From NCBI GenBank assembly GCA_958295955.1, contig OY282420.1, forward strand, positions 2,308,435 through 2,372,434: a DNA stretch of 64,000 nucleotides, read 5' to 3'. This stretch comes from an uncultured Bryobacterales bacterium. Lineage in GTDB: Bacteria > Acidobacteriota > Terriglobia > Bryobacterales > UBA6623. Shown here one piece after another: positions 17,519 to 23,036 of the stretch; position 1 is the stretch's first letter, and each line of letters begins with the position of its first letter. The notes beneath the pieces were generated by a model. It ran no database searches. It saw nothing but the letters and a program-made list of their open reading frames with translations, and had not been told where the DNA came from. The position numbers and the translations under genes were made by a program.

Positions 17519-18133
17519 CTACGGCCGGCGGGCGGTCAGGCGGAACGAGACGTCCATCTCGTTTTTCGTGCCTACCGCGCCGAACGCCGCTGACGGCGGC
17601 TTGAGGCCGTAGTCCCGCAGCGCGACCGCCGCGGAGCCGTCGAAGCGCAATTCGCCGGACCCGCCGGCGCTCATGACCGCCTCCACGCGGACGGCCTCCG
17701 CGCGGTTGCGAATGGTCAGCAGGCCGAGAACGGCAAAGCTTCCGTTCGCCTGCGGACGAACTTCCGTCGAGCGGAACAAGATGTGCGGATATCTTGCGGC
17801 CTGCAGGATTTTTTCCTTGCCCTCGCGCTCGATTTTGGCCAGATTTCCGGCGTTGACCCAGGTATCCTCGCAAACCATGCCGTCCGCCTCGATAGCGATC
17901 TTTACGCTCGAATTTTCCGGATTCGAGGCGTCGAAGTCGATTTCTCCGGAGTAGCGCTTGAAAACGAAGTCGTGGACCTTGCCGCGCATGAAACCGGTTT
18001 TGTAAACCTTGAGCCTGATCTCGGCCCCGTCCGCCGGCGCGAGGCGATAGATTTCCGCAGCGGCCGGCGTCATCCCCGCGGCAAGAAACAGCGCCAGTCC
18101 CGCGCAGCGCGCCGGTCGCGGGCCGCTGGTCAC
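17519..18133 (-). CDS. periplasmic YceI-like lipocalin-fold protein
   Basis: The best start is GTG at 18131-18133, which overlaps the stop of the upstream glycosyltransferase (GTGA) and gives 204 aa with a short signal segment (CAGLALFLAAGMTPAAA). The YceI pattern is clear: VYKTGFMRGKVHDFVFKRYS, then GEIDFDASNPENSSVKIAIE, KIEREGKEKILQAARYPHIL and VLGLLTIRNRAEAVRVEAVM. YceI proteins bind isoprenoid-like lipids in the periplasm. Coupling to a dolichyl-phosphate-type glycosyltransferase suggests, without proof, a role with polyprenyl lipids. Confidence 0.85.
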   Translation of the reverse strand: MTSGPRPARCAGLALFLAAGMTPAAAEIYRLAPADGAEIRLKVYKTGFMRGKVHDFVFKRYSGEIDFDASNPENSSVKIAIEADGMVCEDTWVNAGNLAKIEREGKEKILQAARYPHILFRSTEVRPQANGSFAVLGLLTIRNRAEAVRVEAVMSAGGSGELRFDGSAAVALRDYGLKPPSAAFGAVGTKNEMDVSFRLTARRP

Positions 18134-18948
18134 GGGTCGCGGGGCTTTTCGATTTGCGGCTTGCGACTCGCGGCTCGCGACTCTTTGTTCTCCACTGCCC
18201 ACTGCGCACTATCTCCATACTTGCCGGTAAGGTCGTTCCAGCGCACTTTCAAGACATCGACGAAGGCGCCGACGCCGTGGAGGAAACCGACGGTCGTGCC
18301 TTCGACGTCGTTCCAGCGCACCGGGACCTCGGCAATTTTACAGCCTAACTTTTCAGCCAGAAAGAGTTGCTCGACATCGAAGCCGAACCCCTCCAGCCGC
18401 TGGCGGGCGGCGACTTCCCGCGCGGCCTCCCGCGAAAAAAGCTTGAAGCCGCATTGCGTATCGGCCGGCGACAGGCCGGTAACCAGCCGGACGACGAGAT
18501 TGAACGCGCGGCCCATTGCTTCGCGAAAGAACGGTTGGCGCACGCCGATCAGGGAACGGTCGAGCGCGCGCGAGCCGATGGCGACCGCGCATGCGCCGTC
18601 CCGTCCGGCGCGGAGCAGCTTCTCCGCTTCTTCGATCGGCGCCGAAAGATCAGCGTCGGAAAACAGCACCCAGTCGCCGCGGGCCGCGCGCATGCCGCGG
18701 CGCACGCTGTAGCCCTTGCCGCGGTTGCCGGGATTGTCGAGCACGCGGTACGCCGCGCCGATGCGGGCGAAAAGCTCGGCGGCTTCATGAGCAACCGCAA
18801 GGGTGCGGTCGCGGGAGCCGTCGTTGACCACCAGCACCTCGACGGCGTCCATCCCGGTCCGGCTTAGGTACGCCGCGATGCGTTCCAGCGACGCGGGGAG
18901 GCGTTTTTCCTCGTTGTAGGCCGGGATGACGACGCTCAGAAAGGGCAA
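18130..18948 (-). CDS. GT2 glycosyltransferase, dolichyl-phosphate beta-glucosyltransferase-like
   Basis: The 272-aa GT-A protein begins MPFLSVVIPAYNEEKRLPAS, with nucleotide-binding VNDGSRDRT, the DxD motif in VLFSDADLSAPIEEAEKL, and the family signature SPADTQCGFKLFSREAAREV. GFGFDVEQLFLAEKLGCKI, EVPVRWNDVEGTTV and DVLKVRW match the Alg5/DPG-synthase group, which loads glucose onto polyprenyl phosphate at the inner membrane. The last 25 or so residues (SAQWAVENKESRAASRKPQI and onward) are encoded by low-complexity text (CGCGAGCCGCGAGTCGCAAG) and are unlikely to be conserved. The stop overlaps the YceI gene start. Confidence 0.88.
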   Translation of the reverse strand: MPFLSVVIPAYNEEKRLPASLERIAAYLSRTGMDAVEVLVVNDGSRDRTLAVAHEAAELFARIGAAYRVLDNPGNRGKGYSVRRGMRAARGDWVLFSDADLSAPIEEAEKLLRAGRDGACAVAIGSRALDRSLIGVRQPFFREAMGRAFNLVVRLVTGLSPADTQCGFKLFSREAAREVAARQRLEGFGFDVEQLFLAEKLGCKIAEVPVRWNDVEGTTVGFLHGVGAFVDVLKVRWNDLTGKYGDSAQWAVENKESRAASRKPQIEKPRDP

Positions 18949-18996
18949 GCCGAGGGGACCCCAAACCGCGAATTATACCGTGAAGACCGTTCGGCT

Positions 18997-19725
18997 TCAG
19001 GCGCGGACGGCGCGTTCGAGCAGCCGCTCGTAGTAGGGCCGGCATGCGGCGAGAAGCGGCCGCAAAAAGTCGGGGAAGGATTCCTGCTTCGGCCGGTAAG
19101 GTTGAAATCCGGTCGAGCGGTGGACGTTGCGGTACCAATGCGGCGCCCAGACCCCGTCGTACGGCTTCGGCCCCCGAGGCCAGGCGAGCATCGACGGTTG
19201 AAAATCCAGATTCAGGCGCAAGCAGAGTTGCCGGAGAACCGATGCCGGGTCGAGCAGCAGTTCGCGGGAGTCGAGCACGGCCGCCGGACGGCCCCAATCC
19301 TCCAACATATCGAGCAATGCGCACTGCCGGGCCAAGCCTGTGTCGGTCAGGGTCGGTTGCGGAATCTGGTGGATCAGCGACGGCAGCATCTGTTCGGGAT
19401 CGCGCGTGAGCAGCACATTGGCCGTCTCGCGCATGAATTGCAGGTCGAGAGCGACGAGGTGGTGCGCCATCTGCTTGAGAAAGAGCGCCGGCCGCGCGCA
19501 AGGACCCAGGACGATGCCGCGCACAGCCCGCTCGCCGTCGGCGTCCTGCGCGGCGAGAACGTCGCCGCGCCCCGGATGGCGGGCGCCGGACACCCGGAGA
19601 TAGTGGGCGTACAACGGCTCGTCCACGACATGCGTGTCGCTGCGTTGGGCGAACGAGTACATCAGCGCCGTGGAAACGTTGCGCGGCCCCGACCACAGGC
19701 AGACGCGCCGAACCGCGTCGGGCAT
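18997..19725 (-). CDS. sulfotransferase-like protein
   Basis: The ATG at 19725 gives 242 aa beginning MPDAVRRVCLWSGPRNVSTA; upstream codons belong to an IS-like remnant. The WSGPRNVSTALMYSFAQRSD segment matches the PAPS 5'-phosphosulfate loop region of sulfotransferases, with VVDEPLYAHYLRVSG after it. LLTRDPEQMLPSLIHQI resembles the 3'-phosphate-binding R..P...S element. The C-terminus carries PDFLRPLLAACRPYYERLL. It probably transfers sulfate to a glycan or small molecule, though similar proteins are annotated only as 'sulfotransferase family'. It lies beside the glycan-related genes on both sides. Confidence 0.72.
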   Translation of the reverse strand: MPDAVRRVCLWSGPRNVSTALMYSFAQRSDTHVVDEPLYAHYLRVSGARHPGRGDVLAAQDADGERAVRGIVLGPCARPALFLKQMAHHLVALDLQFMRETANVLLTRDPEQMLPSLIHQIPQPTLTDTGLARQCALLDMLEDWGRPAAVLDSRELLLDPASVLRQLCLRLNLDFQPSMLAWPRGPKPYDGVWAPHWYRNVHRSTGFQPYRPKQESFPDFLRPLLAACRPYYERLLERAVRA

Positions 19726-19739
19726 AAGCGGCCCAGCGT

Positions 19740-19833
19740 AACAGAGTCTTGCCGGCCGACTCCCGGCGCCCGCAGCTTGCCCCACCCTACCCCATGCCTG
19801 CCCTCCTTCAGCCTCATCTTGTATTGGACCAAG
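19740..19833 (-). mobile_element. IS-like 5' remnant, copy 1
   Basis: Read on the minus strand, this stretch aligns with 47215-47310 over roughly 90 nt, including a 24-nt perfect block that contains ATACAAGATGAGGCTGAAGG. Both copies can be read as YKMRLKEG, then a W/G-rich stretch, leading toward a RQDSVTL/RQGAELSL start. As far as I recall, this resembles the leader and first codons of integrase-core (IS481-like) transposases. The transposase body is absent; the sulfotransferase gene begins directly after. Confidence 0.5.
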
Positions 19834-19861
19834 GCGCAGACGGCGCCCTGTGGTAAGTTGA

Positions 19862-20095
19862 GAAACAAAATACCCAACTTCCAAGGCCGCACGGCGGTTT
19901 TATCTCACCGCAGCGGGGCCGGCTTGTTGCTGCCGGCCTGCCGCTATTGGCTCCTGCGCCGCCTTGGTCAGCGATGCGCTGCCGGCCGATGTCCTGTTAG
20001 CCGGAATGGCGCTCGAGGCGCTCGGCGCCCGACGGAGATGGGAGCGGTTTTGGGGAGAAAAGAATAAAGCAGCGTAAGCGCGGCCGGTCAAAGCT
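19862..20095 (+). other. gap with possible gene-tail remnant
   Basis: No intact gene is seen between the IS-like remnant and the ligase-like gene. On the plus strand a frame ending TAA near 20078 reads DALPADVLLAGMALEALGAR, then RRWERFWGEKNKAA. It looks like a natural C-terminus but has no start and no recognised family. The promoter for the ligase-like gene should lie here; no clear consensus is visible. Confidence 0.25.
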
Positions 20096-21916
20096 ATGAA
20101 CGGTGCTCCCGATTCACCCCTCCTCGGAAACCCCGAGTCCGCCCGGTCCCGGTTGATCGCATTCGCCTTCTGGGGGCTGGCCGTCGTAGTGCTGGTCAAC
20201 GCGCATTGGCTATACCTTTGGGGGGCGCCGCTGGTGCGCTATGGCGGCTATTGGGCCATTCTTGCCTGCTGTCTGCTCCTGATGGGTTCGGTCAACGCCC
20301 GATTGTGGAAGAAGCCGGGAACGCCCGGCCTATTGATCGCCGCCACGATAGCGTCTTATCTGATCATCGGCGTCGCTGCCTCGTTCGTTAACGCCGCGCC
20401 GCCGCAGCCGGATTTGGGCAGAGACATATTGCGTCAAGTTTTTTTCTTCATCGTGCTTCTGGCGGCAGCCCTCGGCGGCCGCGCGCTCCTGGAGCGATCC
20501 GGAATCGAGGCGTTGTTAAAGGGGGTGTTGGCGACCCTGATGGCGAGCTGCATCGTTATTCTGGCCTCGCCGGTCCTGCAAGATGTCGGCTTGACGCCGC
20601 TCTACAGACTGCCCTTTCGCTTGACCGGCGCCTTCACCGACGTCAACGACGCGGGCTTCGTCGGTTGCATGACGGTCGCGGCGGCGGTGGCGTTGCTCTG
20701 CAACGGCGGCCGGCGCAAACTCGCATATTCGGGGCTGATAGTGGGTTACGCCGCAGCTTGGGGATCGTTATCCAGGACGGCAGTGCTTGTTATCGGCGCG
20801 CTATCCATTTTTTTTCTGCTGTCGAACGGTCTCGGCAGGCGGCGCCCCATGCTCCGCCTGCTGTGCGTTCTGAGCTTGGGCGGCATCGTCGTCCACACAG
20901 GCGGGTACCTGCAAAAAATCAACATCTATCCTGATTATGCCCGTGGGGGCTTTTGCTCCACGACGCCCCCGAACAACCCCGGCTTGAGCAGCGATTGCAC
21001 CATTCTGCTGGCCGTGCGGGACACCTTGGCCGGCGATGCCGTGCTGAACTGGGACGATGCGGCGCCCGTCGCCCTTTGGCAGGGCGTCAAGATGGGAAAT
21101 CTGTTGGAAGGACGGCGCGTTGTGGCGCTGGATTTGTCGCGAATGGAGCTGAGCGGGCGTATTCCGCCGGAGTTGGGCGCGCTGGACCAACTCGTCTCGC
21201 TGCGCCTGAATCGCAATCGGCTCAGCGGGTCCGTGCCGGCGGAGTTGGGGAACCTTGCGAACCTCACGGAGTTGCGCCTCGAGGAAAATCAATTGACCGG
21301 CGTCGTACCGGCAGAGTTGGAAGCGCTCGACAATCTGACGATCCCGGGCTTGGCGGACAACGACCTTGCCGGCGCAGGCGGCGATACTGCCCGGGACATC
21401 CCGCCGGTGACGCGCGATACGGCAGGGTCGGCCACAGGGACTGCCGAAGGCGAGGAAACCGACTCCGACGGATTTATGAAAAAGCGACCGTTATTGTGGA
21501 AAATCGGCCTCGAAAAAATCCGGGAATCGCCGATTATCGGGAGCGGCGTAGGCCGGTTCCGCTATAATATGGAGGGTGCTCCCTTCAGCCCCCACCAGGG
21601 CAAACATACAGGAGTCCACAATGTGTACCTGATGCTGGTCGGCGAAGCAGGCATTGCGCCGCTATCGTTTTATCTGTTGTTTCTCTTCTCCTTGATGCGG
21701 TTGCGCTGGGCCGCGCCGGAATCCCCGGCCAGGGACGTGGTCGTCGGTTGGGCGCTTGTCATGGCCTTATACGGTATGGCTTTCCATCATTATCTAACCC
21801 AGGGGACATTCATGTTTCTTGTCGGTTTGAGTTGCGCGCTGGCGGCGGCGGTGTTTGAAGATCGTAAACATCCGCTTCGTAATCCGCGCTCCGGGCTTCC
21901 GGCTACGTCAAACTGA
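20096..21916 (+). CDS. O-antigen-ligase/polymerase-like membrane protein with inserted leucine-rich repeats
   Basis: The 606-aa protein has about eight membrane helices in residues 20-270. It then has a long loop (about 275-465), the Wzy_C/WaaL signature (SPIIGSGVGRFRY, then GKHTGVHNVYLMLVGEAGIA, about 478-520) and two more helices. The loop, facing the periplasm in this family, contains an LRR block at 292-428. A cap NNPGLSSDCTILLAVRDTL and ALWQGVKM is followed by four repeats: VVALDLSRMELSGRIPPELG, LVSLRLNRNRLSGSVPAELG, LTELRLEENQLTGVVPAELE and a weaker LTIPGLADNDLAG. Such ligases join or polymerise lipid-linked glycans. LRRs here would add a protein- or glycan-binding surface. The frame is continuous and there is no internal stop. 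Confidence 0.82.
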   Translation: MNGAPDSPLLGNPESARSRLIAFAFWGLAVVVLVNAHWLYLWGAPLVRYGGYWAILACCLLLMGSVNARLWKKPGTPGLLIAATIASYLIIGVAASFVNAAPPQPDLGRDILRQVFFFIVLLAAALGGRALLERSGIEALLKGVLATLMASCIVILASPVLQDVGLTPLYRLPFRLTGAFTDVNDAGFVGCMTVAAAVALLCNGGRRKLAYSGLIVGYAAAWGSLSRTAVLVIGALSIFFLLSNGLGRRRPMLRLLCVLSLGGIVVHTGGYLQKINIYPDYARGGFCSTTPPNNPGLSSDCTILLAVRDTLAGDAVLNWDDAAPVALWQGVKMGNLLEGRRVVALDLSRMELSGRIPPELGALDQLVSLRLNRNRLSGSVPAELGNLANLTELRLEENQLTGVVPAELEALDNLTIPGLADNDLAGAGGDTARDIPPVTRDTAGSATGTAEGEETDSDGFMKKRPLLWKIGLEKIRESPIIGSGVGRFRYNMEGAPFSPHQGKHTGVHNVYLMLVGEAGIAPLSFYLLFLFSLMRLRWAAPESPARDVVVGWALVMALYGMAFHHYLTQGTFMFLVGLSCALAAAVFEDRKHPLRNPRSGLPATSN

Positions 21917-21971: not shown

Positions 21972-23036
21972 ATGGCAGTGAAATCGACGCTGAAAAAAGT
22001 CAAGCGCTTCCTGCGGGGAGGGTGCGTTCCTATTTACTATTCGCTCCGGTCCAGGGCTGTGCAATGTTTCAAACTAAAACGGCTTCCTTTCCTTCCTCAC
22101 AAAATCGATATCGAGCCAATCGATATGTGCAATTTCACCTGTGATCACTGTCAGGTGACGCACTGGAATCGCTTGACCACGCGCCTGACTCCCGAGCGGT
22201 TCAAGACAATTCTCACGCAGCTTCCCGGGCTTCTGTCTATCAAGCTGCAAGGCATGGGCGAACCGTTGCTCAACAAGCTGCTCATAGATATGCTGGAAGA
22301 ATGCGAGCGGCGCGGCATCGACATGGAGGTAACAAGCAACGGCTCAGTCTATACGGAGAATATTGCGTCACGGCTGAGTTCTCTGCGCCGAGCACTGATT
22401 GTCTTTAGCATAGACGGCGCGACCGCGGAGACTTTTGAGGCGATTCGAGTCAAGGGAAATTTCAAGGCGGTTACCAGCCATGTTGCCGACTTCACGCGCC
22501 GCCGCGGCAAGAAACCCTGGCCGCGAATAGAAATCAGAACGGTAGCTACGCTCCGCAATATACACGAATTACCCGACATCGTCAGACTGGCGAAAAGACT
22601 AGGAGTGGATAGTCTGACGATAACGACTTTACTCACGGATTGGGGCAAGGCAGAAATGCAGGACTCTCTTGCGCCAATTAATGTCTCTCGTGAAAATTCC
22701 CATACAGACCAGTTTATTGAGGAAGCGGAAAAAGTTGCAGACACAATAAATATGCCGATAATTATAGAACACGGGCAAAGATATTCCACTTTGAACCGCT
22801 GTATTTGGCCTTGGTATAGTTCCTACATTGCTGCAAATGGAGATGTTGTTCCCTGCTGTATAATAGCTGACTCGACCGTTGCAAAAATGGGCAACTTGTT
22901 TGAAGAACCGTTTTCCAGAATCTGGAACAACGAGAAATATCAGGATCTGCGACGGCGCATCTCGAGCAACGACATTCCGCATTACTGCCGTAATTGTTAT
23001 GGGATGACGCCGATTGCCCCGGCAAATGAACGGTAA
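21972..23036 (+). CDS. radical SAM enzyme with SPASM-like C-terminus
   Basis: The 354-aa protein has the radical SAM CxxxCxxC motif in MCNFTCDHCQVTHW (about residues 50-63). It also has a glycine motif KLQGMGEPLLNKLLIDML and VFSIDGATAETFEAIRVKGN. A SPASM-type auxiliary cluster region follows (CIWPWYSSYIAANGDVVPCC, then MGNLFEEPFSRIWNNEKYQD, and CRNCYG). Family members modify peptides or sugars via a 5'-deoxyadenosyl radical. No precursor peptide is visible, and the neighbour is a glycan ligase-like gene. Base composition falls to roughly 45% GC in the second half, with AT-rich codons (ATA, AAT) rare elsewhere, pointing to transfer from another genome. Confidence 0.85.
   Translation: MAVKSTLKKVKRFLRGGCVPIYYSLRSRAVQCFKLKRLPFLPHKIDIEPIDMCNFTCDHCQVTHWNRLTTRLTPERFKTILTQLPGLLSIKLQGMGEPLLNKLLIDMLEECERRGIDMEVTSNGSVYTENIASRLSSLRRALIVFSIDGATAETFEAIRVKGNFKAVTSHVADFTRRRGKKPWPRIEIRTVATLRNIHELPDIVRLAKRLGVDSLTITTLLTDWGKAEMQDSLAPINVSRENSHTDQFIEEAEKVADTINMPIIIEHGQRYSTLNRCIWPWYSSYIAANGDVVPCCIIADSTVAKMGNLFEEPFSRIWNNEKYQDLRRRISSNDIPHYCRNCYGMTPIAPANER

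Follow-up and report, generated by a model that had tools for sequence, protein, structure and literature searches.

Leucine-rich repeats in the TM9-TM10 loop of a predicted O-antigen ligase or polymerase, and unrelated modules at the same point in its relatives

The usual signature of WaaL-type proteins is H[NSQ]x9Gxx[GTY], and the way in which WaaL and Wzy proteins choose their acceptor and chain is hard to study because their loops are very divergent. O-ligases form the CAZy family GT121 (PMC10920833). A bimodular O-antigen ligase, WadA, has been described in Brucella, and its extra domain is a cytoplasmic N-terminal glycosyltransferase (PMC9938171). In sponge symbionts, enrichment and lateral transfer have been reported for proteins with leucine-rich repeats (LRRs) and FN3 domains, which are discussed there as host-interaction and attachment proteins (PMC8163846). 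In the literature searched, with most subscription journals outside its scope, we found neither a Wzy_C protein or O-antigen ligase joined with LRRs nor an LRR-type ectodomain on Wzy. Here we analyze a protein that combines these domains, encoded in a stretch of 64,000 nucleotides from an uncultured Bryobacterales bacterium (the window).

The gene has an ATG start and no internal stops, and Pfam detects both LRR_1 and Wzy_C in its product (Table 1), which agrees with the original prediction that a single continuous frame carries membrane helices, LRRs and the Wzy_C/WaaL signature. The repeats score above the curated cut-off (LRR_1, E 3.8e-8, 32.4 bits against 20.6; LRR_8, E 1.6e-5) and together with their N-cap make up an LRR domain, the units of which span residues 341-364, 365-388 and 389-412, followed by a degenerate unit to about residue 428. 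Using phmmer, residues 299-430 matched the start of a plant LRR receptor ectodomain, N-cap included (54.7 bits in one stretch, i-E 8e-14). The predicted cap and 4 LRR units are therefore borne out, and the block extends over about residues 287-428 (about 292-428 as first described). A chance LRR match was also considered and dropped because the E-values, the N-cap and the relatives of the protein speak against it. The Wzy_C match (PF04932) has an E-value of 2.1e-6 and 28 bits as a single piece, and exceeds the cut-off of 31.7 with 41.4 bits once the neighboring pieces of the frame are added, which assigns the protein to this superfamily. The GC contents of the 3 parts of the gene (0.62, 0.65, and 0.57) are near that of the whole window (0.65), so the LRR block is not marked as foreign. 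Divergent from the ligase gene lie GT2 and sulfotransferase genes (window positions 18133-19884, reverse strand), and a link of these genes to glycan modification is possible.

Table 1. Positions of the features described (window coordinates unless a locus is given).
Feature	Position	Strand	Basis or remark
LRR-bearing O-antigen-ligase/polymerase-like protein, 606 aa	20096..21916	+	ORF and Pfam
N-terminal half, TM1-TM9 (residues 1-273)	20096..20914	+	Hydropathy and charge bias; low-confidence AF2 helices
R227 codon, equivalent of 7TPG R191	20774..20776	+	Insert-free alignment and profile alignment to 7TPG
LRR N-cap, residues 287-340, DC..LL..RDTLAGD..LNW..P...WQGV	20954..21115	+	phmmer and module comparison
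Four LRR units, residues 341-428, between TM9 and the R464 helix	21116..21379	+	Pfam, phmmer, module comparison
Linker to ligase core, acidic, Gly/Thr-rich, residues 429-455	21380..21460	+	Sequence
R464 codon, equivalent of 7TPG R265	21485..21487	+	Alignments; invariant in 15/15 aligned ligase-like proteins
H508 codon, equivalent of 7TPG H313, in HNVYLMLVGEAG	21617..21619	+	Alignments
TM10-TM12, residues 512-590	21629..21865	+	Hydropathy and AF2 helices
Radical SAM/SPASM protein	21972..23036	+	Downstream of ligase; syntenic with most homologous ligases in other phyla
FN3-bearing second ligase-like protein, 819 aa	L086:8734-11193; G000:C1 about 3233733-3236192		Same genome as the window

From hydropathy and charge only, the protein is predicted to have 12 transmembrane helices (TM) with an N-in orientation and cytoplasmic ends, and an outward TM9-TM10 loop (residues 274-511) that contains the LRR block. 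This is the arrangement of the Wzy_C/WaaL superfamily, and the low-confidence AF2 helices agree with it. Three helices follow the signature (about residues 512-536, 545-563, and 566-590, by hydropathy and AF2 helices), instead of the 2 that had been reported. The whole-protein AF2 model, which was obtained with the family alignment as input, was poor (mean pLDDT 44), probably because non-homologous inserts were aligned to one another, and it was used for the helix count alone, being too poor for distances. The LRRs had been predicted to lie in the periplasmic loop, and a cytoplasmic location had been named as evidence to the contrary. The latter was dropped because the predicted topology is outward; the block is placed between the conserved R283 and R464, an Arg of the phosphate-binding type, and H508 is intact.

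To compare the core with solved structures, we used a profile of the window protein and 14 relatives, which matched the ligase 7TPG (E 1.7e-23). Counting on the printed 7TPG profile alignment, R191, R265 and H313 of this ligase correspond to R227, R464 and H508 of the window protein, and the same 3 residues align to family-conserved positions when inserts are left out. The WaaL-type signature is present only in part. H-N-x9-G is kept and is followed by I-A-P, so that a proline occupies the last position (HNVYLMLVGEAGIAP), which is a glycine in 13 of the 15 aligned proteins. In the main clade of the family (see below), the LRR-bearing proteins keep the R227 equivalent and most of their Ig-bearing sisters have lost it: N, H, D, A, F or Y is found at the R191 position in most of L127-L139, and R only in L138 and L139. 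In one sister (L228, the same gene as L206), Q replaces the active-site His. Because of these substitutions, some members may be inactive or act on another donor.

As a control for loop size, we used about 85 loops of ligase-like proteins from the window's phylum, in which TM9 and the His are 53-115 aa apart. Only 2 proteins fell outside this range, both from the window's genome: the window protein itself, with 238 aa, and a second one, with 429 aa. A few spacings of 1-29 come from second or false hits of the motif and were excluded from this control. The values quoted are not based on an alternative gap rule, which stops at long internal loops and thus gave false long gaps for ordinary proteins. 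In the second protein, about 350 aa with FN3 repeats occupy the loop position that holds the LRR block in the window protein, and its gene is clustered with genes for an epimerase, glycosyltransferases and a Wzx-like protein. An orthologue with 1 FN3 is present in a Dehalococcoidia MAG (L276). This FN3-bearing ligase contains the one region of the window's genome above the fn3 cut-off, and of the 2 LRR_8 regions of this genome one is in the window ligase. A relative of the FN3-bearing ligase (L275, G669:C1 2281000-2286000) carries yet a different insert in this loop, about 180 aa long and without a Pfam match. C-terminal FN3-like modules of the same kind were also seen on 2 sugar-dehydrogenase/cytochrome-like proteins of the window's genome (L195:1486-3291, reverse strand, and L196, the frame of which is reported to have 1 in-frame TGA).

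Close searches, and searches with the window protein alone against viral contigs and genome contigs, returned no relatives, and from these single-protein scans the fusion seemed unique. A search with an alignment of the C-terminal core overturned this impression by detecting 13 near-full-length loci, of which 2 are identical. The MAGs concerned, mostly megabase chromosome records, are labelled Dehalococcoidia, Binatia, Pseudomonadales, Gammaproteobacteria, Entotheonella, and Latescibacteria. Restriction of the fusion to one assembly, which together with a break in read coverage at the LRR edges was to count against it, thus does not hold. Homologues bearing the Ig-like module described below or LRR arrays occur in Chloroflexota, Binatota, Pseudomonadota, Entotheonella, and Latescibacterota, and full-length homologues with the Ig-like insert span 5 other phyla. 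Across phyla, the backbones of the relatives are 44-55% identical to that of the window protein and about 56-91% identical among themselves.

The loop of these relatives contains an unrelated module of about 106 aa that is predicted to be all-beta and for which no Pfam family was reported. Its model (pLDDT 79) gave weak matches in a fold search (best E 7.5e-4), many of them to Ig or FN3-like beta-sandwiches, so 'Ig-like' is a description drawn from weak fold matches and not a family assignment. The module recurs in other ligase families of the same genomes, always in the same loop and in 1, 3 or 7 to 8 copies, and in a 1388-aa protein the loop that bears it is about 1000 aa long. PMT-like membrane glycosyltransferases of about 880-900 aa (L217, L218, L227, and L216) also have it, in their outward-facing C-terminal part. 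In the Dehalococcoidia MAGs read, nearly all strong matches to the module are in outward-facing membrane glycosyltransferases (several ligase families and the PMT-like proteins), and no Ig-like module was found in the window's genome. Module-bearing ligases occur as adjacent tandem copies at L129, L135, L134, and L259, with a ligase remnant at L134. In addition, the start of a different membrane protein (L136:468-2760) is nearly identical to the segment MPQLIPLLWRRLDFASVTCIA of the ligases, which suggests shuffling of gene starts as well.

A Wzy_C search of the same MAGs detected LRR arrays of 300-2000 aa, again in the TM9-TM10 loop, in 10 more ligase-like proteins (792, 794, 823, 1024, 1767, 2006, 2034, 2213, 2292, and 2388 aa). 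A family of fusions with the LRRs always in this loop, which had been proposed as a test of the architecture, therefore exists. The arrays hold up to about 10 capped modules, which are 45-56% identical to the LRR module of the window protein, N-cap signature included, and ordinary short-loop ligases coexist with the array-bearing ones in these genomes. In one locus (L262), 300-nt copies lying 636 nt apart are 98% identical, indicating that some arrays have grown recently. Other secreted proteins of these genomes contain LRR and FN3 modules as well (L299, L304, L195, and L196). The Dehalococcoidia genome to which L127 belongs (G659, 2.8 Mb) has 185 LRR-module matches, many of them clustered at about 636-684 kb.

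In a tree of 55 backbones from which the inserts had been removed, the window protein grouped in a clade with 8 more LRR-bearing and 15 Ig-bearing proteins (support 98/92), the next relative of which is an ordinary-loop protein (100/99). Ligases from the window's phylum cluster in the tree with those of named Acidobacteria, and this and the presence of Soli_cterm domains make Acidobacteriota the probable phylum of the window. On this tree the LRR label changed 3 times throughout the bootstrap range and the Ig label 3 to 4 times, and a single Ig-bearing clade was rejected (AU p 1.6e-13). Because one origin of the Ig-bearing ligases is rejected, the modules entered the TM9-TM10 loop several times. 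Monophyly of the LRR-bearing members of the main clade was not rejected (p 0.08), so that within this clade either module may have come first and exchange may have occurred in either direction.

The radical-SAM/SPASM gene that follows the window gene adjoins the homologous ligase in most of the other genomes (53-67% identity), and the N half of the backbone is missing from 395 other genomes sampled from the phylum, bar one weak partial match. This synteny in most homologues, together with the near-absence of the backbone from the phylum, argues for lateral transfer: the backbone moved across phyla with the radical-SAM gene and polysaccharide-cluster genes. Between the cluster of the FN3-bearing ligase and the genes beside Ig-bearing ligases, identity reaches 64% for Wzx and 78% for a glycosyltransferase, and the whole looks like a shared, laterally moving polysaccharide gene set. 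Neither the Ig-type and LRR-type alignments in viral contigs nor tblastn in plasmids and phages detected ligases of this family, and thus no transfer vehicle was identified.

Most likely, the window protein faces outward, ligates or polymerizes Und-PP-glycans and carries a recognition module adjacent to its active site, and we assign a probability of roughly 0.55 to the whole explanation of a GT-C ligase/polymerase core equipped in this way. As a GT-C-type glycosyltransferase with 12 TM and a member of the WaaL/Wzy_C superfamily, the enzyme would work at the outer face of the inner membrane on a glycan linked to undecaprenyl diphosphate, which it would either ligate to an acceptor or polymerize. 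The TM9-TM10 loop, which would hold part of the active site (R464 and H508), has repeatedly been the entry point for modules in different lineages of the family: a single LRR module in the window protein and, in relatives, up to about 10 LRR modules, 1 to 8 Ig-like modules, or FN3 repeats. To judge from the folds and their place, the module may hold a ligand near the active site, which could be the acceptor (a protein or a glycan), the chain being extended, or an export-machinery partner. In this way the module would set what is glycosylated, how far, or where, and exchange of the module could alter specificity with the catalytic core untouched. That the LRR block may select acceptor proteins or glycans was part of the original prediction, and it gains strength from the repeated entry of unrelated folds of binding type at one and the same position. 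Lipid A-core is unlikely as the common acceptor because relatives are found in Chloroflexota, which lack LPS. The impression is of one core enzyme that can be equipped with interchangeable binding parts.

The lost Arg and the replaced His of Ig-bearing sisters and the position of the window gene outside a Wzx-type cluster count against this explanation, and so do the modules found in other secreted proteins, since they make a passive accumulation of modules possible. The LRR, Ig-like and FN3 segments, of which bacteria of this niche would carry many, would then be mobile passengers that the TM9-TM10 loop merely tolerates, with no effect on catalysis, as the FN3-like modules at the C-termini of the 2 sugar-dehydrogenase/cytochrome-like proteins and the growth of arrays by tandem duplication (the L262 copies) might suggest. 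However, several unrelated folds occupy the same loop in separate ligase lineages, frames are open across insertions of up to about 2000 aa, and the Ig-like module of the Dehalococcoidia MAGs hardly occurs outside outward-facing glycosyltransferases, and we consider passengers unlikely. The presence of 1 to about 10 LRR or 1 to 8 Ig-like modules in otherwise similar enzymes, and of Wzx and GT genes next to those of the relatives, would also be expected if the module were a scaffold docking the ligase to Wzx, a chain-length regulator, the export machinery or peptidoglycan, so as to set its location and not the choice of acceptor, with long arrays serving as a ruler across the periplasm or wall. 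This seems improbable to us, because no partner gene was found to be conserved across all the module types and the radical-SAM neighbor is expected to be cytoplasmic.

Among the samples of its own family and phylum, the LRR-ligase fusion is present in the window's genome alone, as it would be if an LRR coding sequence had been mis-assembled or mis-binned onto a ligase. Such an artefact is nevertheless highly implausible: the frame is open and the domain edges are clean, other organisms have the same module in this loop on single-contig chromosomes, and the second ligase of the genome has its FN3 insert at the same place and an orthologue in a Dehalococcoidia MAG.

Beyond the reading of a recognition module beside the active site, we tentatively raise a broader proposal, itself open to considerable doubt, that at least 6 phyla share by lateral transfer envelope glycan ligases or polymerases with exchangeable, internally duplicating recognition arrays (LRR, Ig-like, and FN3). 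If this is true, module exchange and copy-number change would diversify the recognition of acceptors or chains, as in repeat receptors elsewhere. Discrete and separable loop domains make the choice of acceptor or chain directly testable by removing or swapping modules. The family would also be of evolutionary interest, as a membrane enzyme that took up domains repeatedly at one site and spread to several phyla together with polysaccharide gene cassettes.

With WaaL (PDB 7TPG/7TPJ; PF04932), the window protein has in common the 12 TM, the large periplasmic TM9-TM10 loop and the matching 2 Arg and 1 His, and it differs in the folded LRR module of about 150 aa within this loop, ordinary loops having 53-115 aa from TM9 to the His. 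Wzy O-antigen/capsule polymerases belong to the same superfamily and have the same topology, and relatives of the window gene adjoin genes for Wzx flippases and glycosyltransferases. Several relatives and the FN3-bearing paralogue have a Wzx homologue encoded close by, whereas no Wzx flippase was recognized in the neighborhood of the window gene, which sits outside any Wzx-type cluster. The profile that matches 7TPG also matches a PglL-type oligosaccharyltransferase (PDB 9RMK, E 7e-13); the window protein has no PglL-specific Pfam or NCBIfam domain, no target protein gene was recognized nearby, and the protein does not qualify as a PglL/PilO protein O-glycosyltransferase. Its score with TIGR03097, the exosortase-linked O-glycosylation ligase, is only 25 bits against a cut-off of 188. 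The LRR and FN3 proteins reported from sponge symbionts consist of the same domain types, but in the window's genome these are located inside a membrane glycosyltransferase; the report fits the kinds of organisms found as relatives, whose MAGs may derive from sponges. The nearest described fusion is WadA, which likewise joins a WaaL-type core to an extra domain. In WadA this domain is a cytoplasmic glycosyltransferase, whereas that of the window protein is a binding-type module in the predicted periplasmic loop.
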